Shown here piece by piece: positions 5,410 to 26,422 of a DNA stretch of 26,422 nucleotides (positions are counted from its first letter, which is position 1; every line of letters begins with the position of its first letter). A program made the position numbers and the translations under genes. This stretch comes from Oehlia diaphana (lineage: Eukaryota > Glomeromycota > Glomeromycetes > Glomerales > Glomeraceae), in assembly GCA_003833135.1 (NCBI GenBank), contig QZLH01000033.1, positions 8,462-34,883 of the forward strand, in the 5' to 3' direction. Under the pieces are notes generated by a model, which was not told the origin of the DNA, did not search any database, and was given only the letters and a program-made list of their open reading frames with translations.

Positions 5410-7735
5410 TGCATGTTAGTAATAACTTGCTTGCATATGATGTGATATAGTCTTTCGCCACTTATAATTCAACGTTCTTTTGTGAGAAATGTGTAACTGT
5501 GTAATTAATTTTAGTGAACAAGTCCTGTCGTAATGATACCGCTGATTCCGGTTCATGTATGCGTATGTACGTACATCTTTCAATTTTTTACAATTTAACA
5601 CAATAACACTCTTGAATTACCTTATTTTTGTTAATTTACAATGATTAGAATGATAATCGATAATCACAGATATTCTATGAGTGAAGCCTACGTAGAGGTA
5701 AACCCGCTAATATTGTGTTAATGCCGCATATCACATTGATCAAATATTATATTTTTTTTTTTACACAAAATTTTTATTTTTTTAATTAACATTGTAATTT
5801 AGTTTGAGATTTTCTTAGCGATAATGAAGATTCTTTAATTTGACATCCTGGCTACTTAAATATTTAGAAAATTGGATATTGTAATCAATAAAATAAATTT
5901 TGCGATTTTCAACGTTATTAAAGAGTCTTTTATGAGAAATTGTGTAACTATGATTTATTTTTAGTGAACCACCATTCACAATTTCTCTTGAGAAAATGTG
6001 TAACTATTTTTAGTGAACAAATCCTGTCATTATGTACCGGAGTAATCGAACGCTGATTCCGGATCATGTACGTGTATGTATGTATATCTTTCAATTTTTT
6101 ACAATTTTAACTCTCAAAATTATTGTGTACCTTACCTTATTTTCGTTTATTCTCGTTAATTTATGATGATTTAGTTGATATTATTGATCACAAATAGATG
6201 TTCTATGATAGTGTTAATATCGATATTTACTCCAAGCCTATGTAGAAGGTAGAACCATATAACATTGATCAAGTATTTATATTTTTTTTACACAATTTTT
6301 TTTTTTAAAAAATTAACATTGTAATTTAGTTTGAGATTTTCTTAGCAACAAAGAAGAACCATTAATTTGACATTCTGCTACTTGAAATATTTAGAAAAAT
6401 TGGATATTGTAATCAATAAAACAAATTTATGATTTTCAACGTTATTAAAGAGTCTTTTGTAAGAAAATGTGTAACTATGTAATTTATTTTTAGTGGACAA
6501 GTCCTGTCATCATGTATCGGAGTTATCCCAGATCATGTACGTGTATGTACGTACATCTTTCAATTTTTTACAATTAACACTCCAAATTAGTGTGCTTAAC
6601 CTTATTTTCGTTCATTCTCGTTAATTTACGATAATTTAGTCGATATTATTGACCACAAATAGATGTTCTATGATAGTGTTAATATTGATATTAACTCCAA
6701 TCAAGTATTATATTTTTTTTTTTTACACAAAATTTTTATTTTTTTTAAATTAACATTGTAATTTGAGATTTTCTTAGCGACAAAGAAGAACCATTAAATT
6801 TGACATCCTGGCTACTTGAAATATTTAGAAAATTGGATATTGTAATCAATAAAACAAATTTACGATTTTCAACGTTATTAAAGAGTCTTTTATAAGAAAA
6901 TGTGTAACTATGTAATTTATTTTTAATGGACAAAGTCCTGTCATCATGTATCGGAGTAATCCCGGATCATGTACGTGTATGTACGTACATCTTTCAATTT
7001 TTTACAATTTAACACTCCAAATTATTGTGTGCTTTACCTTATTTTCGTTCATTTTCGTTAATTTACGATGATTTAGTCGATATTATTGATCACAAATAGA
7101 TATTCTATGATAGTGTTAATATCGATATTAAAACTCCAAGCCTATGTAGAAGTAAAAACGCAAATTCCGGTAATGCTGCATATAACATTGATCAAGTATT
7201 ATATTTTTTTTTTACACAAAAATTTTTTTTTTTTTTTTAATTAGCATTGTAATTTGGTCAGAGATTTTCTTAGCAACAAAGAAGAACCATTATTTTGACA
7301 TCCTGACTACTTGAAATATTTAGAAAATTGGATATTGTAATCAATTACGATTTTCAACGTTATTAAAGAGTCTATTTTTAGTGAACAGGTCCTGTCATCA
7401 TGTATCGGAGTAATCGGGGCGCTGATTCTAGATCATGTATGTGTATGTACAGTACGTACAGTACATATTTCAATTTTTACAATTTATAATTTACAATGAT
7501 TTGTTGATCACCAATAGATATTCTGATAGTGTTAATATCTATATCAACTCCAAAGCTATGTTGCATATATCATTGAACAAGTGTTATATTTTTTTTTTTT
7601 TGCATAAAATTTTATTTTTTTGTAATTTAGTCTGAGGGTTTCTTAGTGACAAGAAGAATCATTAGTTTGACATCCTAATTACTTGAAATATTTAGAAATT
7701 TGGATATATAATCGATAGAATAAATTTACATTAAT
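5410..7735 (+). repeat. Satellite-like array, about five units of 435-500 bp
   Basis: The anchor AGTCCTGTCATCATGTATCG and its variants occurs near 5519, 6018, 6497, 6931 and 7385. Spacings are about 500, 480, 434 and 454 bases. A second anchor, TGTAATTTAGTTTGAGATTT, recurs near 5792, 6315, 6752, 7237 and 7620. A third, GGATATTGTAATCAAT, recurs near 5874, 6404, 6835 and 7330. Each unit holds a partly palindromic GTATGTACGTACAT segment and a poly-T tract. The last unit is the most diverged. No conserved reading frame runs through the units, so this is probably non-coding satellite or a tandemly amplified element fragment. Confidence 0.88.
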
Positions 7736-8950: not shown

Positions 8951-10240
8951 TTAATGATTTTCAATAAGTTCAATGCACCACTGTTAACCATTGTGTGAAG
9001 AAAAAAAAATGTATATTAATATCATTCATATATAATAAATAAGACAAAAATGCGAGTAATGAAATCTAATAAATACCTCATCATTTTCTTCAGGCTTTTT
9101 GTCCTGAGAAATAACTTCTTGAAAAGTTTCATTATAAATAGTGATTTGATATTCATGACTACGTAAGAAAGAATTATCTTTTACGTTACGAATGTTAATA
9201 ATATCACCAGATCTTACGTAGGAAGAATCATATTTTGTATAATTAATTCTCTGTGCCATCCAATGATAATTAAATTGTGAAGTTCTTGAAGGTGTAGAAC
9301 AATACACTACAAAAAAAAGACAGGAAAAAGATGATGAGAAATAAATATTAATAAAAAATCCAAAGTCAGAATCTTTAAAGGCTACTAACCTTCGACGTGA
9401 TCAGCAAAATCACTGTCTGTATAATCGTGATAAATAATTTCATTAAGAGATTCACGTCCAATGAGAGTTTCTGTAACTTTATGTTGCAATGAAAACATAT
9501 CATTATAGGAGAGTAAATCACGAGAGGCCTTAATAAACCATAATGCATCTGAATCTGGTAACGTTTGACCTGCAAATACCTGATAAGAAGTTTAAAAAAA
9601 AAAATGAATAAAAGATTCGATTTTATTTACATATTATTTTAATTTTGATTTTACTTACTATTTGCTTTCCACTTCCAGTTTGATGATATTTTGTAGTGGA
9701 GGATAGATACTTTCCAGTTTTAACATGTTTTATGGCAACACAAGAAGCATTCCTAATTAATTGTGATTCTTCTTCAACAATATTTTCAAACATTTTAATT
9801 AAATCATCTAAAGAACTAATCTTATCCATATTTCTTCTATTAATAAAAGTATTTTTAAAAAAATCATTTGGTAAAGTATGAAAAAGATATTTTTTCTGAT
9901 CTTCTAAATCATTGATTTCAGCATCAAAACAAAGTGAACGAAAATCTGCAACAAATTTCGCCGTATTACCACCATCACGTTCTGTAACATATTTTAAAAG
10001 ATTTAATTTTCTTTGAGCAGAATTTTTAAATACTGTAAATGAAATATTTGATTTTAATTCTTCTATAAGATCATCTAATGTTTTAATTTTTTCAGGATTT
10101 TTGATCGGAACATCAACCATTCCAATACAAAGATTTAAAATATCTTTTTCAGTTTTTATTTGTTTAAGATAACAAAATGAACGAATTTGTTTAATCCACA
10201 TTTGTGGATGATTAGTTCCATTAAATCTTGAAGGTTCCAT
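8951..10240 (-). CDS. Gene A: Gag-capsid-like / MIR beta-trefoil fusion protein
   Basis: Four exons: 10240-9659, 9579-9390, 9306-9077 and 8980-8951, joined at GTAAGT, GTTAGT and GTATTT donors and AG acceptors. They give 343 residues with all phases matching the paralogs. Residues 1-155 resemble a Ty3-type Gag capsid: an N-terminal P/S-x-F-N-G...HP...W region, a LDDLIEELK helix, then RKLNLLKYV, a FVADFRSLC helix, a TLPNDFF turn and a SLDDLIKMFE helix. From about 163, SCVAIKHVKTGKYLSS starts the first MIR repeat. Two more follow, ending in WCIELIENH. MIR repeats form a beta-trefoil known from protein O-mannosyltransferases, SDF2 and IP3/ryanodine receptors. No signal peptide, membrane segment, zinc knuckle or enzyme domain is seen. 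Unlike B and C, it has no low-complexity insert. Exon 1 has the same length as exon 1 of E (582 nt). Role unknown; the capsid fold is inferred from pattern only. Confidence 0.88.
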
Positions 10241-11234
10241 AATAATAATAATAAATAAAAATTATATATATATAATGAAAAAGAAAAGGTTAACTTTTGA
10301 AAACTTTTTAAGAAGGAAAAATTTTAAACTTGGTATAAATGGATTGTGGAAGATCGTCGATCATCTAAAAAGATTGACGTAGTGTTCATGTGAGCTAATA
10401 TATTGTATCTTATGATTCTCATATTAAATCTTCAATCAATTTATCTATTAAGGGTAATATTGGCGCAATTTGTTTGTTGTGCACCTCTTATATCTCGTTG
10501 CCCATCAATTTTTTTAATTTAAATCGGGCGGTTTAATGGCCCAAGTCAATGACATGATATTTTGCAAACCTACATTAATAGTTAGATTGACTTAAAAAGG
10601 CGCAAAAATTTCTACCACGGATTTTTAAATGAGTCTAACTGGCTATTGTTAATTGTAATCATCCTTAAATAAATCTTATTAAAATTCATTCTCCTAGATT
10701 TTATTATAAAGCTAACATATGATCTTTACTTTTTAAGGTTCACTTATTACTTTATCCAAAATTTGATAAAAACCTTTTCGAATTAATATTAGCACAAAGA
10801 ATTTTAAGGATGCCATATGTATATTATTTATAAATAAAGTAAAATCAATTGCAACAGAACCATCAAAAGAGCAGTAATTTCTTTAAGGATGCCAGATGTA
10901 TTATTTATAAATAAAGAACATTGTATATTTCTGTCAATATCAACCCTAAAAAGATAACTTCAATAAGATTCTTTAAAATCTGATTACTGACATGAGTTCA
11001 ACCCTAAACATTTGGAACTTTCCAAGAAGTTGGAATTGCTTCAATTGCGTAATTAATGCTACATTAAACCATTCAGACTCTTTAAAATAAAATGGATATT
11101 TCAAAATAAGATGGGACGGTTGAATAGAACAAAATTAGAAAATAATATTATTTATTTGCTAAGTCTCATTCCAATATATAAAAATTATTAATGGATTAAT
11201 TAATTCGTTAAAATAACATATTACTTTCATTCTT
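10241..11234. other. Upstream region of gene A, otherwise unassigned
   Basis: Nearest the gene A start are AAT/ATA repeats with TATATATATA at about 10264-10273, which could serve as a TATA-like element. At about 10801-10840 and 10883-10918, a 35-40 base sequence is repeated (core TTAAGGATGCCA followed by TTATTTATAAATAAAG). No gene was recognised. Confidence 0.5.
10801..10920 (+). repeat. Direct repeat pair, core TTTAAGGATGCCA
   Basis: Two copies about 80 bases apart share TTAAGGATGCCA, then a purine/pyrimidine variant, then ATTATTTATAAATAAAG. Nature unknown; it may be a small local duplication. Confidence 0.6.
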
Positions 11235-11690
11235 GTAAAAGTCCTGAATGACAACGAGGCGATATCACACGATTTCTTGCTAAATCTAGCCGTGATGCTG
11301 AATTAAGAGATTAAGACATACAAAATTAATTCTATGAATGATTTAACACAACTTTCCGATAATATTGTATTGGAAGATAAGAAATGGTTACTCAGACATG
11401 TTGCAACATAAGTAAGTAAATTAGATTGTATATATTTATAGGCAAATTGTAATTTCAAATTCACGAATATATTATGTCTGATATGCTTCTTATTCTTCAT
11501 GCGAATAGCAATATATTATTATATGTTGTTATAGGTTTATGCGCGTTCTGTCTAAATAGTGATGAATAATGGATAAAAAAAGTTTGGAGAAATGTTTTTG
11601 CAATAATTACTTTACGTAGTCCTGATTTTAAGTTTACTGTGAATAATGATACTTAGCTCATAAAGAAAGAATTGGAGGTAAAATGTATCT
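11235..11690 (+). pseudogene. Relic I of a Gag-MIR gene
   Basis: Plus-strand fragments match three parts of the family in the right order, separated by stops and frameshifts. Around 11242-11300, the frame reads PE-stop-QRGDITRFLAKSSRDAELRD, aligned with PEKDGGDTVAFLSKFQSLCYNAEINDIE of gene E. At 11394-11408, RHVAT matches the start of MIR repeat 1 (RHVSTGKYLSS). At 11611-11685, LRSPDFKFTVNND and then AHKERIGGK match MIR repeat 3 (LRSHDLKFTVDNE...HDQRIGGND). The N-terminal Gag part and the middle MIR repeat are not recognisable. The copy is broken by internal stops and indels and is not expected to make protein. Confidence 0.7.
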
Positions 11691-12558
11691 TAAATTTATT
11701 GACTCGATATTTAAATCAAAATATTGTTGTATTGCCATATCGAACTTATCAATTAATTATGATTGAATACTCACGATGTTTATTGCTGATTTTCATAAAT
11801 TCTAACGTCTGAGATTTAATAAAATGCATTTTTTGATGAAGATTTTCTTAGAAAAATAAATGTATTGTTATGCAAAAATGCAAAAGAATATTATAAACTC
11901 AATAGACTAAAGTATTTGAAAAGAATAATGAAAATCGATCCATCGTAGCTCTGCAACAGGAGTCATCTGTAATAATAAGTAATACATATAATTCTAGGTG
12001 ATTCACATTTCTAATTAATATCTATCTGCTATTTTCATTCGCAATTTCTAACCCTTTTGATAAACAAAAAAAACCAATTTACTGAAACTTTTAACTAATT
12101 AATTTATTTAAATTTTCTGACTTGTTAGCATAGTTTGAACATTATTCTGATTGGTTACATGAATAAATCGCGCTTCCGCCGTTCCTAAAAAAAAGTAGGA
12201 GAAAAAAAATTTTACATTTTGATGTTACATTCATACATCATTTACATTTACGGCTTATTATCGAAACGCTGAAATTTAATTACTATAGATTCGACAATGC
12301 ATTTATATAATAATATCATAGCACGTATTTTTTATTGTTAATTGTTGACATAGTTAAAAACTTTGGTTCGCGGATATCAAAATTTGATAGTTAAGAATTC
12401 CTTTATTAATAATTAGACGAAAAAAAGATAAGAATTAAATGTGAATAAAGTAATAAAGTACATATTATAAAAATTTATCTATAAATAGGAATAATATAAG
12501 CTAAAATATCGCGTAAATATCTCGAAAATAATAAAAATAATGTGATCATTATTATATT
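11691..12558. other. Unassigned AT-rich DNA
   Basis: Between relic I and the small secreted protein gene. Nothing coding was recognised. The end near 12559 probably includes the 3' UTR of the minus-strand secreted-peptide gene. A GCGCTTCCGCCG-type GC-richer patch occurs near 12170-12182. Confidence 0.5.
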
Positions 12559-12897
12559 TTATGGTTGAGGGCAATTACACTCGCAATTACAAAAGGTTTT
12601 GCAAATTTGATTAGAGCAGATTGTACAGCAACAAGCATTAGAATTTCTACAACTGGACTCTATTTATTATTTTAAATGAAAAAGAATTAGTATTTCACTT
12701 TTTTTTTTTAAAAAAAAAAACATTTGAATAATTTGAATAATTTGAATAAAATAAATAAAATAATTACTGCAAGTAATGTCACCACATACGATTCGTTTAT
12801 CTAATAATTCAGGAAAAGGAGCAGGAGTAGCAGTAGTAATAGTAAAAGTAGTCAAGAGAGTCAAAAAGATTAAGAAAAGTGCGATTTTCATTTTCAT
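12559..12897 (-). CDS. Small secreted cysteine-rich peptide (candidate effector or peptide)
   Basis: Two exons, 12897-12768 and 12659-12559, joined over a 108-base GT/AG intron, give 76 residues. Residues 1-24 (MKMKIALFLIFLTLLTTFTI...) form a typical signal peptide with cleavage expected near TTATP. A Pro-rich stretch follows and ends in LLDKR at 31-35, a Kex2-type dibasic site. The predicted mature part, 36-76, has 41 residues and 12 cysteines, including a CCC cluster and a closing C-N-C-E-C-N-C series. An even number of cysteines fits disulfide bonding. The terminal CxC series would also fit metal binding, as in metallothioneins, so the role is open. If the intron is retained, the frame stays open to a stop just before the acceptor and loses the cysteine-rich tail. 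It is unrelated to the surrounding family. I do not recognise a named family. Confidence 0.72.
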
Positions 12898-12958
12898 TTT
12901 CTTTTTCCAAGATTTCTTTTTAATATTTTTTGATCAAAATTACTTGGAAGTAAACGTA

Positions 12959-12966
12959 TATTTATA
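12959..12966 (-). promoter_or_regulatory. TATA-like element of the secreted-peptide gene
   Basis: TATAAATA on the minus strand ends about 62 bases upstream of the ATG at 12897, a plausible position for a core promoter. The match is exact, but TATA-like words are common in this DNA. Confidence 0.4.
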
Positions 12967-14325
12967 AGACTTTTTTTAATATTATTCAGTTACTTGTTGA
13001 ATATTAATAGAATGTTACATTTTTTGTTTTGCAAACTCGAAACTATAAAAAAGCGTTTTATTATTGTCCATTATGTGAATACATATTCAGTTAGAAAAAA
13101 ATTTATTATTTGAAATGTTAGCAATAAGATCATAGGATTAGCATGGGTTTAGGATAAAATCGCTTTAGAATACAATTACGGTTACGGTACGTAACATATT
13201 TTATAATACGGGAGATTATACATTATTCGCTTGGTCAGGTACTTTTCATTATGTTAATACATTAGGCTAAACTGCTGGAGTTGTGATCTTCAGATAATCC
13301 GGAGTTTCGTGGGTATTCAGGTTAAACTTGACATAAATAAATAGTTTAGCCTGAAAGAGGATTAGTGTAAAGAGAGCTCAAATGAGGTAGTGAAGAGAGG
13401 TTGAAATCTATGTAATGTTGCAGCGGTGTTGTAACATTTCTGTAATGGTTATATAAGTACGCTTAGATTTATAATTAATTTATTTGTAAAAAAAAAAAAA
13501 ACCAAAATTTACATTGTTTTAATTTATTCGTAAAACAAAAAAAAACATTTAATAATATCTGTATTATCTGTTATCATATCAGATGAATTCCAATCAGTTT
13601 CACCATCTGAATTTTCGTCTTCTTCAACATTTCCACAACATTTTATTTATGTATAAATGATATATTTCGTTTGTATCTTCATTAAAATTTCGGTTGCCAA
13701 AATTTCTTCACTTTCAATTGCGTTAATTATGTTAAGTTAGTTATCACCTCATCGATATTATTCAAGACTAGTTTATTTGTATTGACGGATTACAATTAGA
13801 ATATCGCAATTATAGCGAAGACTTTAGATAAAGATAACAATTTAGGGGGCTACGTTTTTTGTCGTAATTTACCAAAAATAAAATTCCTAAGAATTGAAAA
13901 GTCATGTTCAATCTAGCACTTTGAGAAACTATGATAAAGCCGATATTTGAATATACGGTTTGTTCGATTCACAAGATGTCCACCATATATATCATATCCA
14001 GGCGCGTTATATATTTGGTTTTGATTGGTAATCACGCGGTTACAAGAATTTCCCTGCCTTGAATTACTTCATCGAAAAACCAACTCCTTAATGTTTACAG
14101 GATGTAAAAAAAAAATTGCAAAATATACTGTAATATCTTTGTTGAATTCATTTTTAAACGCAATTTTTTATGGTTTCCTGAGTTGGGACGATCCACACTG
14201 TTAAAGATTGACAAATATTTTTCAGATGACTAATAAGAAAATAGGACTTTATGAACGTCTAAATTTTAATAATAAGATAAATAAACAATATTTCTCTAAG
14301 GCTCTAATTTATATCTATCATCATA
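12967..14325. other. Unassigned DNA
   Basis: About 1.35 kb with no supportable gene or RNA. A-rich runs occur at about 13488-13502. Composition is similar to the other intergenic stretches. Confidence 0.5.
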
Positions 14326-15165
14326 ATGAATTTATACATCAAAAAAGATAACACGTTGTTTAGACCGAATTACGGACGAACGGAAAACAATAATTTAATA
14401 AATGATCCACATTTTAGTGATTTTACATTACAGTTTTTAAATTTTTTGCAGAAAAAACCCTGGAAACGAGATTGTGATACTATAAGCTTTCTTGCCAAAT
14501 TTTGTCACTCTGCTGTCATGATGGTGAAATCAATGATTTAAAAGACATTATTTTTTATTGTAAAACTCACTCCAAAATGGATTTACTCAAGTTACATTTC
14601 TTAAGCAAATGAATTATGTTAATTTCATGAAAGAATCAGTACAATTTATAATTAATGTTGTATTGGAATATTCAGCTTTGAGATATAATCATAGAAATTG
14701 TTCTCGTGCTTGTTCTCTGACATTTTGCATTATACAAACATTCAACAAAAAGATGGTACTTATAAAATTACTACTATCATATATAATGGGTATTTATGAG
14801 TTCTGTTCCAAATAGTAATACTCAGTGGAGGGTGATCTGAAATTTTTATGGGAATTTCTTAAGGTATGTTAATAACTTCAGAATCTATTCAGATAGTAAG
14901 AATTTAAGCCCTGTAAAAAAAAATGTTGACCATGTTTATATTTCCATGTTTTTCCCGTGAATGTATCATTTTCATGGAATTTGTAGCTTTTGGAAATTTT
15001 CATCCCTCTAACGGATATCCGTGAATGTATCATTTTCACGGAATTTTTACGAAAGCCACGGAGAAATAATGGAAATAGTCGGATAAAATTTTTTATAGGG
15101 AAGTATTCTTGATCACAAATCATAATACTTATCAAGAGGTAATAGCTCATGAAGAAATAAAATAA
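14326..15165 (+). pseudogene. Relic J of a Gag-MIR gene, interrupted by a MITE-like insertion
   Basis: From about 14430, the plus strand reads DFTLQFLNFLQKKP...DCDTISFLAKF. This matches the SFTIFKESCERKL...GGDTVAFLSKF segment of genes E and H. After frameshifts it continues DGEINDLKDIIFY and MKESVQFIINVV, matching INDIEVIKNIIYK and MEELLTLFSDII. At about 15112-15162, ITNHNTYQEVIAHEEIK matches MIR repeat 3 (FTVDNESYQEVVTHDHR). Several stops and shifts break it, and the N-terminal part before 14326 is not clear. It lies tail-to-tail with gene B. Relic K is its tandem-duplicate copy, and the insertion at 14909-15100 is absent from K. Confidence 0.72.
14909..15100. mobile_element. MITE-like insertion of 192 bp in relic J
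   Basis: The left end CCCTGTAAAAAA and right end TTTTTTATAGGG are terminal inverted repeats with one mismatch. AAG flanks both sides (14906-14908 and 15101-15103), fitting a 3-bp target duplication. Relic K shows the empty site: GAATTTAAG runs directly into TAGTCTTGATCAC near 17588. Inside are two copies of a CGTGAATGTATCATTTTC unit (about 14956 and 15030). No transposase is encoded. It is a non-autonomous DNA-transposon-like element; the superfamily is not assigned. Confidence 0.7.
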
Positions 15166-15237
15166 TTAGTTTAGTATTTTTTATTTTTTTCTCTTCATTC
15201 ACTGTACTCAAAAGTCAAAAAGCGTTATACTTCTACT

Positions 15238-16835
15238 TTAAGCTAAGTACGAGTTTCCGCGCGAATTTGTTAAGTTTTTTTGCGGATGTTCAACAAGTTC
15301 AATACACCACTATATATAAAGCGAATCAAAGATATTAATAATGATTTTTAAAATAGTAAGTAAAATCTAGTGTGTACGAAAAAAAGAAAATTTTTTACTA
15401 TACTGTACCTGATCATTTCCTCCAATTCTGTGGTCGTGAGTAACAACTTCCTGATAACTTTCATTATCAACGGTAAAATATAAATCATGACTTCTTAAAA
15501 ACATATTTTTGGTACGTTCATGCTGGACATTATTATGATGAGGATAAACAAAAACATCATTATCGTCATTATCTAAATTATTACTATCATTATTATTCCA
15601 TTGAAGTAAAATGATATCTCCAGATTTCACATTTCCTTTATTATCATGATTATGATAATGTTTAAAATTCCAAGGAAATTGATAATTATTGCCACAACAT
15701 ACTATAGAATAATAAGATTAATTTATTAAAAAAATTTTAAAGATTTCAGAATACACCACAAATAAACTAACCTTCAAAGTGTTTACTTGTAGGTGATTGT
15801 TTAGATATGTTTGTATAAAAAGATTTACTAAGAATCTTATGTTGTATTTGAATTGAACTTTTGTAATTGATAGGATTAAAATCGAGATCACGAGAAGGAT
15901 GAGAAGGAATATCAAGTTCTTCATCAGTATCATCATCATCATCATTATTATTATTATTAATGGACCATAAAGCGTTTGGCCCGAAATCACCACAGTAAAT
16001 CTATAAATACAAAGATTATATTAATAAAAACATAATTATAATAATATAATAATTTTCAACTAACCATATAATCAAGACTTGAGGCTTGAATTTGGGTTGA
16101 TTGTTTTGATATAAACATTGCAAGTGGTGGGGGTTGTTGGTAGAATGGGGGTCGACCACCTCGTAAACCTCGTGCAATTCTTCTGCTAGGTTGTTTAAAT
16201 TTAGGTCCACGGTACGGGTCATGGTAGTCTTGGTATTGTTGGTTATGATACTGGTCATGGTCTTGGTATTGTTGGTTAGAGTGTGGATACTCTCTATCAC
16301 AACTGGATAAATATTTTCCTGTACTAACATGTCTTAAAGCTATGATGGATCCATTTCTGATTATTCTTGAATAATCTGAAACAATTTCTTCAAATGTTCT
16401 AATTAATTCATCCGTAGAATTACCATCCTCATGTTTAACAAATTCATTTTTAAAGAAATTGTAAGGAAGTGCGTTAATAAGATATTTCTTTTGTTCTTCA
16501 ATATTTGTAATTTCCGCATCACGACAAAGTGTACGAAAATCGGTGACAAAATTTACGGTATTGTCACCCTCATATTCAGATATATATTTTAATGCTTGTA
16601 ATTTTCTTTTACAAGAGTTTTTAAAAACTGTAAAAGAAATATGATTTTTTAGTGCATTAATAAGTGTATCGAAAGAATTTATGTTTTCCGGTATATTAAT
16701 TGTAGAATCAATCATCATTATTGCAAACTTAAGAATTTCTTGTTCATTTGTAATTTGTCTAAAATTACAGTATACCCGCATTTTTTTAACATATTCATTA
16801 GGATGAATTTTTCCATTATAAATGGGAGGTTCCAT
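15238..16835 (-). CDS. Gene B: Gag-capsid-like / MIR fusion protein with expanded low-complexity loops
   Basis: Four exons: 16835-16065, 16000-15772, 15701-15409 and 15309-15238, giving 454 residues. The ATG is chosen because MEPPIYNGKIHPNEY aligns with C and G. Residues 1-155 are the Gag-like part: SFDTLINALK, RKLQALKYI, FVTDFRTLC, ALPYNFFKN and DELIRTFEE helices and turns. MIR repeat 1 starts at about 161 (GSIIALRHVSTGKYLSS). It is then interrupted at 180-252 by a Q/Y/H/P-rich linker with an RGLRGGRPP segment. Exon 2 carries five Asn then five Asp codons (271-281), and exon 3 an Asn/Asp-rich loop, before FLRSHDLYFTVDNE and IGGNDQ|WCIEL. The last exon reads 15 residues past the stop position of C, because about 19 inserted bases remove that stop. 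Intracellular location is expected, as no signal peptide is seen. Function unknown. Confidence 0.88.
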
Positions 16836-16942
16836 TTTGAAATAAAATTAAAAAGAAATAAAAAAAGGTAAAATTTTATAACGGGCTAAGTTGCCGACAA
16901 TTAATTTATCCTTAATAATACATGGTTATATTATAAATTGGT

Positions 16943-16988
16943 TAAATGATATTCTAATCACAATACTTAACATCACGTGATACACTTT
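16943..16988 (-). promoter_or_regulatory. Conserved upstream block of gene B with a CACGTG palindrome
   Basis: About 108 bases upstream of the ATG, 46 bases match the same place before gene C with five differences, all transitions. It contains the 10-bp palindrome ATCACGTGAT (16972-16981), an E-box/bHLH-type CACGTG core. It may be a control element, or may be conserved only because the duplication is recent. Confidence 0.35.
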
Positions 16989-17069
16989 TTTATAAATATT
17001 GTTGCGTAAATCATAATAATTAAATAAATGATCTTTAAAACACCACATTACTATTACGGGTTTTAAATT

Positions 17070-17201
17070 TTTTTGTATAAATTTGTATCAAATGGGCTCG
17101 TCCATATATAATTGGCTCTGGCTTAAATTTAAATTATTTTTTGCATAAATTTGAGCTAATTTTGAGCCAATGAGCCCGTTTGGTATAAATTTAAACAAAA
17201 A
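17070..17201. mobile_element. 132-bp hairpin / MITE-like element between the duplicated units
   Basis: The left arm TTTTTGTATAAATTTGTATC followed by AAATGGGCTCG pairs with the right arm, whose reverse complement reads TTTTTGTTTAAATTTATACC then AAACGGGCTCA. This is about 32 positions with five mismatches. Inner GGCTC...TTAAATTT segments also pair, so nearly the whole element could fold back. No clear target duplication was found. It lies between copy 1 (ending about 16988) and copy 2 (starting about 17222). It could be a foldback MITE; superfamily unknown. Confidence 0.6.
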
Positions 17202-17221
17202 CTATTTACTGGGTGAACTGT

Positions 17222-17655
17222 AAGCGATTTTGGTCACTCTGTTATGATGGTGAAATCAATGATTTAGATAACACTATTTTATAAAACTCGCTCCAAAATG
17301 GATTTAAGTTACGTTTCTGTAAACAAATTAATTACAATGTTAATTCTATGAGTGAATCAGTACAATTTGATAATGTTGTATTATTGAAATATTCATATTA
17401 TTCTCGTGCTTGTTCTCTGACATTTTGCAACCGAAAAGTATTTATTTGTCAAGTACAGACAATCAAAAAAAAAAGCCACTGATAAAATTAATATATATAT
17501 TATGGGTATTTGGACTGAAAATTTTATGGGATTTCATAAGCGAAAGTATGTTAATAACTTTAGAATTTATTCAGATAGTAAGAATTTAAGTAGTCTTGAT
17601 CACAAATAATAATACTTATCAAGAAGTAATAACTCATGAAGAAATAAAAACAACT
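17222..17655 (+). pseudogene. Relic K of a Gag-MIR gene
   Basis: Duplicate of relic J without the MITE. GGTCACTCTGTTATGATGG through AAATCAATGATTTAGATAAC matches the part of J that encodes the FLAKF...INDLKDI segment of the Gag-like domain. Near 17590-17650 it reads ITNNNTYQEVITHEEIK, a remnant of MIR repeat 3. Stops and shifts interrupt it, and the N-terminal half is missing. It lies tail-to-tail with gene C. Confidence 0.68.
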
Positions 17656-17723
17656 AGTTTTCAAAGTCAAAGTGCGTTCGTTATACTTCCACTTTAAAAC
17701 TAAGCACGTGTTTCCATGCGAAT

Positions 17724-19161
17724 TTATTCAATAAGTTCAATACACCACTAGATATAAAGCGAATCAAAGATATTAATAATGATTTTTAAAATAGTAAATT
17801 CTGACGCGTACGAAAAAAAAAGAAAATTTTACTATATTATACCTGATCATTTCCTCCAATTCTTTGGTCATGAGTAAAAACTTCCTGGTAATTTTCATTA
17901 TCAACGGTAAATTTTAAATCATGACTTCTTAAAAAAATATCTTTGGCATGTTCATACTGGACATTATTATTATGTAGATTATTACGAAGATAATTATAAA
18001 AATTTATATTATTAATATTATTATTATTCATAATATTATTAACATTATTATTATTCCATTGAAGTAAAATGATATCTCCAGATTTCACATTTCCTTTATT
18101 ATCATGATTATGATAATGTTTAATACTCCAAGGAAATAGAAAATTATCGCCACAACAAGCTATAGAATAAAAAGATTAAATTTATTAAAAAATTTTTAAA
18201 GATTTCAGAATGAATCACAAATAAATCTAACCTTCAAAGTGTTTACTTGTAGGTGATTGTCTAGATATGTTTGTATAAAAAGATTTACCAACAAGAATCT
18301 TATGTTGTAATTGAATTGAACTTTCGTAATCGATAGAATTAGGATCGAGACCACAAGAACTTAGAGCAGTAGCTAAATTATTACTTCTATTGATGGACCA
18401 TAAAGCGTTTGGCCCGAAATCACCACAGTAAACCTATAAATACAAAGATTATATCAATAACAAATATAATTATAATATTATAATAATTTTCAACTAACCA
18501 TATAATCAAGACTTGAGATTTGGATTTGGATTGGATTTTGTACAAATCTATTAGTAAATGGTATATTTTGCGAGAATTGTTGGTTATGGTTTTGGTATTG
18601 TTGTGGATACCTCTTATCACAACTGGATAAATATTTTCCTGTACTAACATGTCTTAAAGCTATGATGGATCCATTTCTGATTATTCTTGAATAATCTGAA
18701 ACAATTTCTTCAAATGTTTTAGTTAATTCATCCGTAGAATTAGCATTCTTATGCTTAACAAATTCATTTTTAAAGAAATTGTAAGGAAGTGCATTCATAA
18801 GATATTTCTTTTGTTCTTCAATATTTGTAATTTCCGCATCACGACAAAGTTTACGAAAATCGGTAATAAAATTTACGGCATTATTATTGTCATCCTTATA
18901 TTCAGATATATATTTTAATGCTTGTAATTTTCTTTTACAAGAGTTTTTAAAAACTGTAAAAGAAATATGATTTTTTAGCGTATTAATAAGTGTATCGAAA
19001 GAATTTATGTTTTCCGGTATATTAATTGTAGAATCAATCATCATTATTGCAAACTTAAGAATTACTTGTTCATTTGTAATCTGTCTTAGATTACAGTATA
19101 CACGCATTTTTTTAACATATTCATTAGGATGAATTTTTCCATCATAAATAGGAGGCTCCAT
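17724..19161 (-). CDS. Gene C: Gag-capsid-like / MIR fusion protein
   Basis: Four exons: 19161-18499, 18433-18232, 18159-17843 and 17747-17724, giving 401 residues. Tandem duplicate of B. The Gag-like part (1 to about 157) differs from B at few positions. The linker after YLSSC is shorter and Q/N-rich, and exon 3 has its own Asn-rich loop (WNNNNVNNIMNNNNINN). The MIR repeats follow: RNGSIIALRHVSTGKYLSS; YESSIQLQHKILVGKSFYTN; KSGDIILLQW to FLRSHDLKFTVDNE and IGGNDQ|WCIELIE. The start at 19161 matches B and G (MEPPIYDG). An in-frame ATG at 19179 would add MFPNFR and would be met first if the transcript includes it. No signal peptide or membrane segment. Role unknown. Confidence 0.88.
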
Positions 19162-19259
19162 TCGGAAATTTGGAAACAAATTAAAAAGAATAAAAGAATT
19201 AAAAGGTTGTAAAATTTATAATGAGGTTTTAGATCAAGTTTGACGGATTATGTAATGTG

Positions 19260-19306
19260 TTAAATGATATTCTAATTACGATATTTAACATCACATGATG
19301 CACTTA
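19260..19306 (-). promoter_or_regulatory. Conserved upstream block of gene C
   Basis: Counterpart of the block before gene B, about 99 bases upstream of the ATG. The central CACGTG of B is CACATG here (19292-19297), so the palindrome is broken by one transition. Confidence 0.3.
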
Positions 19307-20149
19307 GTTTATTTAATTGAATCATTGTTGCGTACAATGCCGTACATTATATCATACAGTAAGAGGACCAGAATGCGAGATATTGATAGAAGACATTTTA
19401 TTTTCAGATAAAGGTACGATAAATCAGGTTTCTACTGCTTTTTTTTTTATTGACTTTTTTGATTTATTAAATGATTTCTTTTATGTGGTATTATTACCTG
19501 GGAAGTTGGAGTAACTTCTGCGTGGTTTTCAAAATAAAAATCATTTATCTAGGAAGGAGAGCTGCTTCGAATTAATAATTATGAGAATGATATTATAACC
19601 GTATCTAAATTCGAGAAAAGGAATCTGAAAAAATGATGTTAATAACCGGAATTGACGTTTGTATTGTATGTTGGGAACTCTTAATAATATCCAAAAATAT
19701 GCACGTAGTAAAAACAAACAATGATTACTTGCCTCAAATTCTTGTGGTACAGTCAATAAAGTTAAAATTTAAATATTTTGGCTGTTAACTGATCCTATCT
19801 CTCTGGTATTGCACAAAAAAAATTTCACAAACTTTCCTTGACATGTCTTTTAAGTAAAAATGTAAAATATGCAATGAACCCCGTGATAATAATTCTAGTT
19901 TTTTTCTTAATTTCAAATTTAAAAAGCCAAAAATTATATGTGGTGTCACTCTCGATCCAGGATATTTTCACGTCAATAAATAAGCGCGACAGAATTTCAC
20001 GAATAAATATTAACTTCATTCTTTAATTACTCCAATTACTAATTCCAAGATAATTTGTAATTGCTTCAAATGTATCAACCTGAATTATTATTAGGGCATG
20101 GCATAGTAAATAATTGACAAACTGAATAGATCTTTTAAGTCGCAATAAT
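19307..20149. other. Unassigned DNA between gene C and relic D
   Basis: Frames at 19317-19514 (+), 19541-19756 (-) and the overlapping pair near 19825-20026 have no recognisable composition or paralog in the window. No family fragment was identified here. Confidence 0.5.
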
Positions 20150-21302
20150 CCAATTCAGTTATTTAACAAGCTCAACATCCACAAAATGTAAAGAGATAAA
20201 AAATAAATAAAATATTTATTATTTTTTTTACTTTTTTTACTTTTTTTTTTAAAAAAAAAAAAAATAATAAATACGTTGATAATATTTATAGTATATGCGC
20301 GTACCTGACGATTCCTTAATCATTAGCAATAACTGCTGAACTTTCTGATAATTTTACCATTGACTGTAAAATTTAAATTATTACTTTTTAAAAAAATATT
20401 ATTTCATCATCATTTTATTATTCACTGTATTCTTCTTCATTATAATTTTTCATATCCTCTTAATCCTCTTCATCATTCTTCTTTAATTTCATCATAATAA
20501 TTTCATCGAAGTAATATTTCCTTGGTATCTTGATTACGATAACACTTAATACTAATCTAAGGATATTCGTTGTAATTGTTACATTATACGTTAATTTATT
20601 AAGAAACCTAAACATATGTCAGATTATGAACAACCTAGCGATTTTCATTGACACTTGAAAATGTTTTACAGTATGTCTTAACTCTAGTATTCAATAGAAT
20701 AGAACTAATAAATCATAAAGCATTGACTTAAAACTACCACAATAAGCTTACAAAGATTCATTATTAAAAGTAAAATTTAATTTTGGTTCAAAAATAATAA
20801 TGATGATTATAAATTTAACTTGAAATATCATTATTGTAATTTGAAAGAAAGATAATTTTATTAATGGGAAATATATAAATTGATACAAGGGTATATTACT
20901 CGCTGGATATAAATAGGTTAATAGGATAAATATTTCCTGTGGATATATATCTTAATACTACGATAGATCTAAACTAACGCCGCTTTCCAAATAATTCAAC
21001 TAACTCATTTATAGAATTAACATTCTTTCATTAATAGATAAGAAATTTAAAGGAATTGCATTAAAAAACGTCTTTAAATATGCATCATGACGAAAGTTTA
21101 CGAAATTTGATAAATAAAATTTGCAGTATCCCCACTTTTACGTTCAGGTATATACTATTTTTTAAAATTGTAAAAGTAATATATCATCACTTGTGATATT
21201 TTAATTGTAGAATCAACATTCAGTATAGCAAATTTAAAATTACAGTATATGCGCATTTTTTTGGTATATTATAAGGCGCAATTTCCAAATTTGGAAGTCC
21301 AT
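20150..21302 (-). pseudogene. Relic D of a Gag-MIR gene
   Basis: Minus-strand fragments follow the gene order of G. From an ATG at 21302 comes a scrambled start. MRIYCNFKFAILNVDSTIK is at about 21255-21200, then PERKSGDTANFIYQ near 21150-21105. An exon-1 end with a TTGAATTATTTGG-like remnant and a CCTGTGGATATATATCTTAATAC segment (complement) lies near 20930-20965. A MIR repeat 3 remnant (about 20375-20300) ends in a GTACGCG donor-like site. A shifted last exon is near 20150-20180 (TGGATGTTGAGCTTGTT, one base short of TGGTGTATTGAGCTTATT). Many deletions and stops. It is head-to-head with gene E, only 68 bases between the two ATG positions. Confidence 0.72.
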
Positions 21303-21370
21303 TTTACAGTAAAAGCAAGGATTAGCGAATTTTTGTTATGTTACCTGTTACATTTTTTTCTTTCCAAAAA

Positions 21371-22621
21371 ATGTGTCCTCCAAAATATGATGGAACTATG
21401 CATCCTGAAGAATGGATTCAACAAGTTGAAACATTTTGTTTATGTAATAATATAAAGATATCGACAGCTATATTATATAAAAAATTGATTCATCCTTCAA
21501 TTAAAATTCCTTCTATTGAAAATATGATAACAAAAGATGAAATATTAAATGCATTAAAAGCTCATGCTTCTTTCACTATTTTTAAAGAATCATGTGAAAG
21601 AAAATTACTAGCATTAAAACATATTCCTGAAAAGGATGGTGGGGATACAGTGGCTTTTCTTTCTAAATTTCAATCTCTTTGTTATAATGCAGAGATTAAT
21701 GATATTGAAGTAATTAAAAATATTATTTACAAGATTATGATTTCAAATGAATTTTTTAAAAGCGAATTTTCCAAAAGGTCAAAGAAAATTAGTTCAATGG
21801 AAGAATTATTAACATTATTTAGTGATATTATAGAAGATGAAGCAAATTTAATTAAATCTGGTTCTTGTATTGCCTTAAAACATGCTGCCACTGGAAAATA
21901 TTTGAGTAGTGTATCAAATTTAAATTATAAAACGGGATCATATAGTCAAGTGGTGAGTATATGATAATTTATTAAAGTTTAAAACATATATAAAGACGTG
22001 TTTTTTTACTAAAATTATGTAAAATTTGAATAGGTATTTGCTGGTGAGACTTTTCCAGGACCAAATACGTTCTGGATAATTACTTTTAGTTCTCAATCTT
22101 CGAAGAAATATCCTTATACAAATTTTGCTTTTTATGATGATAAAATATATTTAAATCATAAAATGACTAGCAGAACATTGATATGTAGTGGTCATTATAT
22201 CTCTCCTTTGTATAGTCATACAGAAGGTAATTAATAAATTTTATCGTGGTATAAGGAAAAAAACTTATCTAATTATTGAAGGCTTTTATTTTGTAGTTGG
22301 TTGTAATATTGGTCGTCATATAGGATATTCCACAGCTTGGAAATTGAAAAGGCATGCTAGTTCAACAAATAATAATTGTACATGCGTAAAATCCCAAGAT
22401 AGAATTATTCTACAAAATGACGATTTTAATAAGGTTTTACGAAGCCATGAACTTGAATTCGACCTTAATAATGAGAAATTTCAAGAAGTTTTTGGACATG
22501 ACAAAAGAGTTGGCGGAAATGATAAGGTATGTTGTGATATAATTAATTTAACAAATAATGAAGATGGTTGTTAACAAAATAATTTTTCGTTTTTTAGTGG
22601 ATTATTGAACTTATTTCTTAA
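21371..22621 (+). CDS. Gene E: Gag-capsid-like / MIR fusion protein (plus-strand subfamily)
   Basis: Four exons: 21371-21952, 22034-22226, 22297-22526 and 22598-22621, giving 342 residues. Donors are GTGAGT, GTAATT and GTATGT. The start at 21371 aligns with MDLPKYDGTIHPEEW of H. An in-frame ATG at 21338 would add 11 residues. The Gag-like part (1 to about 157) has PPKYDGTMHPEEWIQQ, DEILNALKAH, RKLLALKHIPEKDGGDT, AFLSKFQSLCYNAEI and MEELLTLFSDI. MIR repeat 1 starts at 164 (GSCIALKHAATGKYLSS). Exon 2 begins VFAGETFPGPNTFW. Exon 3 ends VLRSHELEFDLNNEKFQEVF and VGGNDK, and the tiny exon 4 encodes WIIELIS. Exon 1 has the same length as in A although the sequences differ much. The stop overlaps an AATAAA, and a truncated copy (F) follows. 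Function unknown. Confidence 0.88.
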
Positions 22622-22626
22622 ATAAA
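22621..22626 (+). terminator. AATAAA overlapping the stop codon of gene E
   Basis: The final A of the TAA stop is the first base of AATAAA, followed by an A-run. If used as the polyadenylation signal, the 3' UTR would be only a few tens of bases, which fits the close start of relic F at about 22653. Confidence 0.4.
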
Positions 22627-22652
22627 AAAAAAAGTCAACGCGTGATAAACTT

Positions 22653-23592
22653 TTAAGGATTTTGAAAGTTCATATCTCTTTTACTATTTTCAGAGAATCC
22701 TGTAAAATGAAAAGGATGTGATGATACAACAGCTTTTCTTGACCAATTTTTAATCTCTTTGTTATAATGCAGAAATTAATGATATTAAAGAAATTAAAAT
22801 ATTATTCATAAGATTATGATTTCAAATGAATTTTTTAATTATGAATTCTAAGAAAAATCAAAGGAGATTAATTCAATTAATTCAATCAATGGAAGAATTA
22901 TTAAAATTATTTAGTAATATTACAACAGATGAATCAATTAAATGTGTTATTATGGTTCTTGTGTTGCTATAAAATATACCGCTACTGAAAATATTTAGGC
23001 AGCAGATCAAGTTTGAATTATAAACGCGTGCGCAAAATCAAGTGGTTAGTAAATGATTTGTTTAAAGTTTTATGTTTATTTTTTACTAATATTTTAATAC
23101 TACAAACCAAAGGATTATTTAAAACCAAAGAATTATTTGATTTTGTATAGGTATTTGCCGGCAAAACTTTTCAGGCCAAATATGTTATAGATTATCATTT
23201 GCGTCATAAAGTGACTGACAGAACGTTGATAACATAGAAGATCTCCCTTATCTGATCATTCAGAAGATAATTTAAATATTTTAGTATAATTATCCTTTTT
23301 TTAAAAAACCTTATTTAAACAATTATTGAAAGCTTTTATTCTGTAGTAAGAGCATTATAATATAGGACTCTATTCTCACTGATTGGTAGTTGAAACAGTA
23401 CAATTTAACCAATAAACGTGCGTACACGAATCAATATAGAATTTTACAGTATAATAAGGTTTTATCAACCTTGAATGATAAGAAATTTCAAGAGAATTGA
23501 TGGAAATGATGAAGTATGTTGTTGATATAATTAATATGTAATTTTTTTAATATTACCGAATTTAACTTTTATTGAACTCATCTCTTGAATAT
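22653..23592 (+). pseudogene. Relic F: 5'-truncated copy of an E/H-type Gag-MIR gene
   Basis: Starts about 30 bases after the stop of E, at LRILKVHISFTIFRESCK, matching LNALKAHASFTIFKESCE of gene E. About 57 N-terminal residues are missing. A deletion of about 34 bases removes the KLLALKHIPE segment. The copy then goes on through the Gag-like C-terminal part with frameshifts, KYTATENI-stop-AADQV (for KHAATGKYLSSVSNL), and an AG|GTATTTGCCGGCAAAACTTT acceptor and exon 2 near 23152. An exon 3 remnant LNDKKFQE(L)IDGND is near 23475-23510, and an exon 4 remnant FIELIS is near 23572-23590. Clearly broken by stops and indels. Confidence 0.8.
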
Positions 23593-23942
23593 AAATAAAA
23601 TATACATATATTTTTTCTTATAAATATTAATATACTGTATATTAGGTATTTAACGCGATTGAAAAATAAACCAAGAACTTTCAAATTAATAGTGATTTTT
23701 ATTGTTAATATTACAGATATTAATTAATTAATTAGTAAATTCTCTTGAATTTTGGTAAAAAGTAAGGATTGAATTTTATCAGGTCTTTATAACTGAAATT
23801 ATTTGTCATTGGATCGTTACCATATACGCATATTTTGAATAAATAAAATAAATAAATATCAAAGCACTCTTTATAAGATTTGTTATAATTAAACTACGAT
23901 ATAATAAAGCCTATAATTGAAAATCATAATGAACGATCTAAT
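23593..23942. other. Short unassigned spacer
   Basis: About 350 bases between relic F and the 3' end of gene G. AT-rich, with no gene or repeat recognised. It should contain the 3' UTR of gene G. Confidence 0.5.
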
Positions 23943-25295
23943 TCAGGTATCACGATATCCAATAAGCTCAATACACCACTAGATATAAATGAAAGAAGAA
24001 CGTTAACAACTTTGTTTAAATATGTTTATATTTACATTCATATAATTATATACCTGATCATTTCCTCCAGTTCTTTGATCATGAGCAACAACTTCTTGAT
24101 AATCTTCATTCTTAATCTTAAATTTAAATTCATGACTTCTTAACAAAATATTCTCATTAACTTCAGATTGTTTCCATTGGAGTGTAATGATGTCCTGAGA
24201 TTTCACATTACCATTATCATTTTGATGATGATAATTTCCAATAATCCAATGATCTTTCCTTTCTTTTTCGTAACAACATACTATAAAGTAATAAGATTAT
24301 AATAATAGTAACTATTTCGAATGCATGATAAATAAGACTAACCTCTGAAATGATTACTTATAGGTGATTTTTTATCCATATCTGTGTAAAAAAATTTGCT
24401 AAAAATCTCATGCCTTAATTGAATGGGTTTACCATAGTTAATGGCAGAATTAATAGATTTAGTGCTAGAATTCATAGACCATAAAGCATTTGGTCCAAAA
24501 TCGTCACAGTAAACCTATAAAAACAAACATTGTAAGATTACTTCATATTTAGATACCATAAATTATTATAACAAATTCAACTAACCATATTAGAAGATTC
24601 AAATAGATGAGCAATTAAAATACTAATAAATCTTCCAGTACTCAGTTCAACCTGAAAAGAAATAAATAAATAAATTAGAATTTAAAACTAAATGTTAAAT
24701 AAAATTCCTAGTAAATATTTATTTAAATCATATTAACCATAGGACAATTTTTATTGCTGCTGGATAAATATTTTCCTGTGGAAATATGTCTTAAAGCTAC
24801 TATGGATCCATTTCTAATTATTCTTGAATCTTCTAAAACGCTTTCTTCAAATACTTTAACTAGTTCATTCATAGAAGTAACATTCCTTTGTTCATTAGTG
24901 AAATTATTTTTTAGAAAATTATAGGGAACTGCATTAAAAAGACATTTCTTTTGTTCTACCAAATCTGTAATTTCAGCATCATGACAAAGTTTACGAAATT
25001 CGGTAACAAAATTTGCAGTATCACCACCCTCACGTTCAGTTACATATTTTAATACCTCTAATTTTCTTTTACATGAATTTTTGAAAATATTAAAAGAGAT
25101 ATGCCCTTTTAATGCATTAACGAGTACATCAAAAGAGGTTATATTTTTAGATATATCAATTGTAGAATCAATATTCATTATAGCGAATTTAAGAATTTCT
25201 TGCTCATTTGTAATTTGTCTAAAGTTACAATATGTACGCATTTTTTTGATATATTCATTGGGATGAATTCTTCCATCATAAATTGGAGGTTCCAT
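23943..25295 (-). CDS. Gene G: Gag-capsid-like / MIR fusion protein with an extra linker exon
   Basis: Five exons: 25295-24738, 24651-24586, 24514-24343, 24280-24054 and 23978-23943, giving 352 residues. The Gag-like part (1 to about 157) is close to B and C: MEPPIYDGRIHPNEY, FDVLVNALKGH, RKLEVLKYV, NFVTEFRKLCHDAEI, AVPYNFLKN, MNELVKVFEE. MIR repeat 1 begins at about 161 (GSIVALRHISTGKYLSS). Exon 2 (22 codons) takes the place of the long linker of B/C, which is not split there. The exon 2 end ...SSNM|GTTAGT matches the SLDYM|GTTAGT donor of B and C. Exon 3 starts VYCDDFGPNALW. Exon 4 contains KSQDIITLQW, LLRSHEFKFKIKNEDYQEVV and TGGNDQ. Exon 5 encodes WCIELIGYRDT. No signal peptide. Head-to-head with H. 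Function unknown. Confidence 0.86.
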
Positions 25296-25460
25296 TTTAA
25301 AATGTTATTAAATGAGATAGAAATTAAAAAAATTTCAGCAGGTTTAGCAGGTTTTATAGGTTACAAATTTACTAAATTCGGAACAATCCAGTTTCTACTG
25401 CGTCATGAATTCATTTAAATAACGGGATTAACATATTTTGTTACATTTTTCCTTCTAAAA
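25296..25460. promoter_or_regulatory. Shared intergenic region of divergent genes G and H
   Basis: 165 bases separate the two ATG codons, so any promoter elements of the two genes must overlap here or lie inside the partner. No TATA or CACGTG element stands out. A bidirectional promoter is an inference from spacing only. Confidence 0.4.
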
Positions 25461-26422
25461 ATGGATCTTCCAAAATATGATGGAACTATACATCCTGAAG
25501 AATGGATGCAACAATTTAAAGTATTTTGTTGCGCTAATAAAATGTCATACTCCGAAGAAAAATTTTTATGGAAACAATTGATCCATCCTGCAATTAAAAT
25601 TTCTTCTATTGAAAATATATCAACGCACGATGAATTTTTAAATGCTTTGAAAGCTCATGTTTCTTTCGATATTTTTAAGGAATCTTGTAAAAAAAAACTA
25701 TTGGAGTTAAAATATATTCCTGAAAAGGATGGCGGAGATACAGCGATTTTTCTTTCTAAGTTTCAAACTCTTTGTTATAATGCAGGAATTAATAATATTG
25801 AAGAAATTAACATTATAATTTACAAAATTATGATGTCTAATGAATTTTTTAAAAGTGAATTCATAAGAAAATCGAAGGAAATTAATTCAATAGAAGAATT
25901 GTTAAAATTATTTAATGATATAACAGTAGATGAAGCAATTTTAATTAAAAATTGTTCTTATGTTGCCATAAAACATGCCGCCACTGGAAAATATTTAAGC
26001 AGTGTGTCAAATTTGAATTATAAAACAGGAACATATAATCAAGCGGTCAGTAAATATTTATTCTACTTGGTTTTATGTACCGTATACACAAATGGTTTTT
26101 TTGTTAATTATTCCAATGGGTTTATTATATATATTTTTATGTAGGTATTTACTGGAAAAACTTCTCTAGAACTAAATGCGATATGGAACATTTTTGATAA
26201 CAAAGGTCGATCGAATGTTTTTTATGATGATATTTGTTTGATACATCAGCAAACTAACAAAAGGTTAAACTGCACTACTTATAAATCTCTATCTAATTAT
26301 TCAGAAGGTAATTTATAAATTTAGTACAAGTATTTTTTAAATAAATAATTGAAATCTTTTTTTGTAATAGTAAGTTGCTATAATAATTACCCGACGAACC
26401 ATACAATTTGGAAATTGAAACA
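25461..26422 (+). CDS. Gene H: Gag-capsid-like / MIR fusion protein, 3' part outside the window
   Basis: Exons 25461-26045, 26145-26307 and 26371 onward, cut by the window end inside exon 3. The donors GTCAGT and GTAATT and the phases match gene E. The 195-codon exon 1 has MDLPKYDGTIHPEEWMQQ, DEFLNALKAHVSFDIFKE, KLLELKYIPEKDGGDT, FLSKFQTLCYNAGI and IEELLKLFNDI (Gag-like), then SYVAIKHAATGKYLSS (MIR repeat 1). Exon 2 encodes VFTGKTSLELNAIW...; exon 3 begins VSCYNNYPTNHTIWKLK, parallel to VGCNIGRHIGYSTAWKLK in E. The missing end should hold MIR repeat 3 and the small W-x-I-E-L exon. Subfamily partner of E; no break seen in the visible part. Confidence 0.85.

Follow-up and report, generated by a model that had tools for sequence, protein, structure and literature searches.

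Host genes built on retroelement Gag are already known. Arc, dArc1, PEG10 and PNMA2, all of them structural matches to the proteins described here, likewise carry a two-lobed capsid (predicted in our case) without enzymes and are host genes under constraint; they keep or lose the RNA-binding tail, and we know of none joined to a MIR trefoil. In Ty1 p22 and Drt2, a Gag C-lobe is reused by the host, and this lobe aligns at 2.6 Å. Fusion of Gag to a host gene is also known from fungi: Gag-PEX14, as outlined in PMC10799480 (citing Wang and Han 2021), joins a Gag sequence of Bel-Pao origin to a host gene and contains an intron. Here, we describe about 60 related Gag-MIR genes in an arbuscular mycorrhizal (root-symbiotic) fungus, whose proteins join an N-terminal half with a predicted capsid fold to a C-terminal half with a predicted MIR beta-trefoil. 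The first-pass annotation of this DNA knew of no described Gag-MIR fusion, and our search of the open-access literature likewise found none recognised, nor this family; the words MIR and gag do not occur in the main text of PMC8778642 (on gene families expanded in early-diverging fungi) or of PMC9453076 (the Paraglomus genome). The database records that we retrieved call these proteins hypothetical, unnamed, or MIR domain- or motif-containing.

Gene structure and family size

By spliced translation, the window, which is the whole 26,422-base stretch of DNA analysed here (G+C 25%), contains five complete genes (A-E) and a sixth (F) cut by its edge, just as first annotated; they lie on both strands (Table 1). 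All introns used are GT-AG, and each complete frame has one terminal stop (5/5). Genes A-D have four exons and gene E has five. In the common layout, exon 1 ends within or just past MIR repeat 1, MIR repeats 2 and 3 are encoded by the two exons that follow, and the protein ends in a short last exon. The complete proteins span 342-454 residues, the extra length of B and C lying mainly in Asn/Gln-rich inserts. The N-terminal pattern said to be shared by these proteins is present as described, with L79, F100 and C104 invariant in A1, an alignment of 60 family members. Two decayed copies of the family sit between the intact genes.

Table 1. Positions of family genes and decayed copies in the window (genes by spliced translation; decayed copies by tblastn of the window proteins against the window)
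Feature	Span	Strand	Protein	Exons	Gag-like part	Content
Gene A	8951-10240	-	343 aa	9659-10240, 9390-9579, 9077-9306, 8951-8980	~9773-10240	Gag-like + MIR
Gene B	15238-16835	-	454 aa	16065-16835, 15772-16000, 15409-15701, 15238-15309	~16368-16835	Gag-like + MIR, long insert
Gene C	17724-19161	-	401 aa	18499-19161, 18232-18433, 17843-18159, 17724-17747	~18685-19161	Gag-like + MIR
Decayed copy	20935-21268	-				Family fragments with stops
Gene D	21371-22621	+	342 aa	21371-21952, 22034-22226, 22297-22526, 22598-22621	~21371-21838	Gag-like + MIR
Decayed copy	22635-23024	+				Family fragments with stops
Gene E	23943-25295	-	352 aa	24738-25295, 24586-24651, 24343-24514, 24054-24280, 23943-23978	~24828-25295	Gag-like + MIR
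Gene F	25461-26422	+	266 aa read, cut by window end	25461-26045, 26145-26307, 26371-end	~25461-25928	Gag-like + start of MIR

Several other features of the window may be recorded here. Within exon 1 of gene B (16065-16300, minus strand), a Gln-rich and then Arg/Gly-rich insert lies between MIR strands; P0008, the Rhizophagus irregularis counterpart of B, has a like insert, and gene C has a Gln/Asn-rich one. A candidate small secreted Cys-rich peptide with a signal-like N-terminus is found at 12540-12933 (minus strand), with a Lys-Arg site ahead of its Cys-rich part and a further Cys-rich stretch past an apparent intron. Upstream of the gene cluster, at 5500-7700, is a block of imperfect direct repeats in dispersed copies that are 60-97% alike (families D9-D16).

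Across the genome (108.8 Mb, 1,672 contigs), the N-terminus of E matches 84 places. From these, 55 regions were fetched in addition to the window; the places left unfetched were shorter matches, stop-containing frames, or sites beside apparent assembly gaps. Together with the window, the fetched regions hold 62 open frames that match, and all but one of these reach at least 160 residues. The 120-residue frame of L059 is counted among the 62 and omitted from A1 and the dN/dS calculations; A1 comprises 60 of the 61 family members, L063 being omitted as it has no in-frame start codon. MIR exons 2 and 3 both lie downstream on the same strand in 57 of the 62 Gag-like frames, in agreement with the fusion to a MIR partner claimed from the window. 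Only one MIR exon follows in three frames, one of which is the window-cut F, and none in two. Hence, in the copies examined, the order of Gag-like domain and then MIR is close to fixed, and 84 places for the N-terminus of E together with 57/62 frames bearing both MIR exons put this architecture far beyond chance. The two halves are about equally conserved in sequence, with mean pairwise identities of 0.525 and 0.509 (1,225 pairs).

The capsid-like domain and the predicted MIR trefoil

The C-terminal half was claimed to consist of MIR repeats, and both a PDB profile search (SDF2-like 3mal, E 2e-7; Pmt1 6p25, E 4e-7) and the predicted fold, a beta-trefoil of three repeats, bear this out. Single window proteins score under the Pfam MIR (PF02815) cut-off of 25.6 bits (E 21.4, A 20.4, D 15.7); the MIR half of family member L054 exceeds it, with 45 bits. 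L054 is also one of the six matches in a genome-wide MIR search. The other five fall at four loci, C67, C644, C31 (twice) and C127, which look Pmt-like when their frames are inspected by eye; no MIR-only gene was among the six. No signal peptide was seen in the window proteins, the Gag-like domain starting directly at the N-terminus. Unlike them, SDF2-like and Pmt MIR domains and the MIR-only proteins of Mucoromycota are without a capsid-like domain.

For the N-terminal half, modelling of E predicts a two-lobed capsid fold. The six best PDB rows in Foldseek are capsids (E-values >0.05), all of the best 50 rows listed by VIA are capsids (Z <=8.6), and the top named rows from a viral structure library come from reverse-transcribing viruses. 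A full-length model was made for P0020, which is 95.6% identical to gene D. The first-pass annotation had held that missing capsid lobes, or best matches to an unrelated helical family, would speak against its reading; two lobes were predicted, with capsid matches on top. Based on these models, the N-terminal domain very probably adopts a capsid fold.

Sequence searches were less telling. A PDB profile search with A1 returned three unrelated chains, none significant. Pfam assigned no gag family to single window proteins, the cut-off of Retrotrans_gag (PF03732) not being reached, and among A1 members Retrotrans_gag appeared in 2/60 at E<=1, with spurious families in up to 10/60. With hhalign, the probability of a match to seven gag stretches from this genome was 4.1%, and NCBIfam had no match for two family proteins. 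Because no sequence search gave the window N-termini a significant match to Gag, we can only infer descent from a retrotransposon Gag, from the predicted fold and from profile matches among sister genes that are weak and converge; these two lines favour the capture claimed earlier, and the sequences of the window N-termini do not.

The sister genes in question belong to a clade of 28 tips (support 0.99) formed by L054, L056 and L060 of this genome and relatives from other species, in a midpoint-rooted FastTree phylogeny of 189 tips (P0004, P0017 and P0018 omitted). Judging from its sequences, this branch is slowly evolving and strongly conserved; L056, for example, equals R. irregularis P0106 letter for letter save seven residues at one intron boundary. 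Three capsid-type Pfam families recur among 21 slow-branch members at E<=0.1: DUF7041 in 13 (best 4e-5), a caulimovirus coat domain in 11 (best 3.7e-4) and Retrotrans_gag in eight (best 0.0017), all under curated cut-offs in the tables inspected. Families unrelated to Gag or MIR each occur in at most three of the 21. Retrotrans_gag matches at about residues 51-121 of P0107, P0123 and P0127, in the register that the model predicts, and out of register in L054 (108-162). DUF7041, which we take to be a domain of Gag proteins and on which a literature search found no paper, falls on the N-lobe (13-48) in L054, P0107, P0109, P0112 and P0123 and on the C-lobe in P0111 and P0127. It is also present in the precomputed annotation of two metagenomic members, rescored at 24.4 and 23.2 against a 28-bit cut-off. 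Searched against the whole genome, DUF7041 gave one place, below cut-off and outside the known family loci, and it was matched in one control genome as well. The slow-branch profile aligned over the same region to the seven resident gag stretches (hhalign, P 0.0039, probability 8.7%). These leads converge without amounting to proof of Gag.

A rival reading would have the N-terminal domain as a helical bundle fused to MIR, unrelated or convergent and with no descent from Gag. The lack of a significant sequence match and the modest Foldseek and VIA scores would fit such a bundle. The capsids that fill the best Foldseek rows and the best 50 VIA rows listed, over both lobes, argue against it, as do the three distinct families recurring in the slow branch, and we consider it improbable.

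Distribution, origin and selection

A Gag-like domain is present in 130 of 213 retrieved proteins. The named carriers are R. irregularis, R. clarus, R. diaphanus, Glomus cerebriforme, Funneliformis caledonium, F. mosseae and Acaulospora morrowiae; named relatives with both Gag-like domain and MIR are thus confined to Glomeromycotina, and many further records are unnamed metagenome pieces. By taxonomy, Acaulospora belongs to the Diversisporales and R. diaphanus, now listed as Oehlia diaphana, to the Glomerales, in which we also place R. irregularis, R. clarus, G. cerebriforme, F. caledonium and F. mosseae. Outside the family, the closest named relatives among fungi are MIR proteins from Jimgerdemannia, Radiomyces, Syncephalastrum and Basidiobolus, which lack the Gag-like domain.

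Counterparts at 91-96% identity exist in R. irregularis for genes B, C, D and E (B 91% to P0008, C 92% to P0009); gene A has none above 44% among the proteins retrieved. Gene F equals R. diaphanus P0057 over 266/266 residues, and E is identical to an R. diaphanus record over 211 residues. In R. clarus, the proteins at the adjacent locus tags 01850014-16 are, in this order, D-like, E-like and again D-like; judged from locus tags alone, this suggests conserved gene order. Sister counts in the tree mix same-species records with others, and no species dating was drawn from them. The simplest history would be a joining of Gag and MIR in the ancestor of Glomerales and Diversisporales: one old capture, in which a retroelement Gag gene joined an existing MIR gene before the two orders split. 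The slow branch would then keep the ancestral job, and tandem clusters like that of the window would have diversified through duplication and loss.

Some relatives depart from the common plan. P0130 of F. caledonium, a predicted protein of 562 residues, reads as one Gag-like and MIR unit with another, shortened at its N-terminus, behind it; this could be a genuine tandem or the product of merged gene models. P0017 and P0018 of R. irregularis combine divergent Gag-like and MIR parts with an extra C-terminal part, and may likewise be merged models.

Median dN/dS is 0.56 among the 1,291 of 1,830 pairs with dS <1, and exceeds 1 in 20 of these 1,291; the two closest pairs lie near 1, resting on few changes. 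Open frames, host introns and purifying selection, the marks of a co-opted Gag gene, are thus all found here. Median dN/dS for Gag and MIR repeat 3 is 0.53 versus 0.56 in 28 pairs and 0.53 versus 0.46 in 199 pairs, and dN of MIR repeat 3 is the higher in 14 of the 15 closest pairs listed. These medians are similar, and domain-specific selection was set aside as an argument.

The genome holds many copies and fragments of the family, as it would if the genes were still part of a mobile element. The complete genes carry three or four introns and a MIR partner, and four of them have the close R. irregularis counterparts noted above. No pol match was found in 26 of the 33 frames of at least 60 codons outside the genes (the other seven, of low complexity, were unscanned). 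No LTR-like repeats were found, direct repeats of at least 100 bases at 80% being gene-to-gene matches only. We therefore reject the mobile-element reading, on account of the introns, the MIR partner and the absence of pol matches and LTR-like repeats in what was scanned, and regard it as highly implausible. The zinc knuckle, too, is missing as claimed: a CCHC motif occurs in 0/6 window proteins and 0/131 retrieved proteins, one of which (P0131) is without the Gag-like domain.

Proposed function and comparison with known systems

Gag proteins are ordered matrix, capsid, nucleocapsid, and the MIR trefoil follows the capsid-like C-lobe, at the place where nucleocapsid stands. Since the capsid C-lobe faces the interior in retroviral shells, trefoils would lie inside such a shell; the outward display envisaged by the first-pass annotation conflicts with this order. 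On a rough estimate, a trefoil of 20 kDa would take up about 24 cubic nm; roughly that would be offered per copy by a 240-copy shell of dArc size, and a 60-copy shell would probably leave too little room. Closed shells are no more likely in our view than open lattices or dimers of the C-lobe.

On balance, we think it probable that an old Gag capture, joined to MIR, gave rise to a self-associating scaffold or cage that clusters MIR sites in the cell. In this reading, the Gag part would form at least C-lobe dimers and possibly a lattice; the trefoil, at the nucleocapsid position, would have a protein, glycan or lipid rather than RNA as its ligand; and the protein would act as an intracellular clustering scaffold or cage. 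A further proposal, that capsid-like shells or lattices with inward MIR domains in place of nucleocapsid package protein, glycan or lipid rather than RNA, with about 60 cargo specificities in one genome, seems doubtful to us.

Alternatively, Gag-MIR proteins may be restriction factors that poison the assembly of resident LTR retrotransposons, the tandem clusters reflecting an arms race. Resident gag frames do exist (18 Retrotrans_gag places in the genome), the C-lobes of Ty1 p22 and Drt2 are among the structural matches, and the family is large and tandem with decayed copies. Dominant-negative restriction, on the other hand, usually needs a close Gag relative, and a genome search with a slow-branch member gave nothing outside the family at E<=1, so that resident gag has no detectable similarity to it. 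The mostly low dN/dS and the strong conservation of the slow branch also weigh against restriction, which we judge unlikely. Among the resident frames, one of 794 residues with a Retrotrans_gag match (L080 1321-2001, minus strand; G000:C716) is unlike the other gag frames of the genome.

If the N-terminal prediction is true, arbuscular mycorrhizal fungi would possess domesticated capsids as a large family, common to at least the Glomerales and one Acaulospora of the Diversisporales, whose partner domain we have not found described beside Gag. This would make a clear question testable: whether a Gag shell can be rebuilt around a binding module that is not for RNA, and of what use this is to a symbiotic fungus. 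Compared with Ty1 p22 and Drt2, both lobes are predicted here, a trefoil is added, and no link to a resident Gag was found. The Gag-MIR genes share with fungal Gag-PEX14 the fusion of Gag to a host partner, and differ from it in the partner. From Arc, dArc1, PEG10 and PNMA2 they are set apart by the trefoil, by the size of the family and, among named records, by their restriction to Glomeromycotina.
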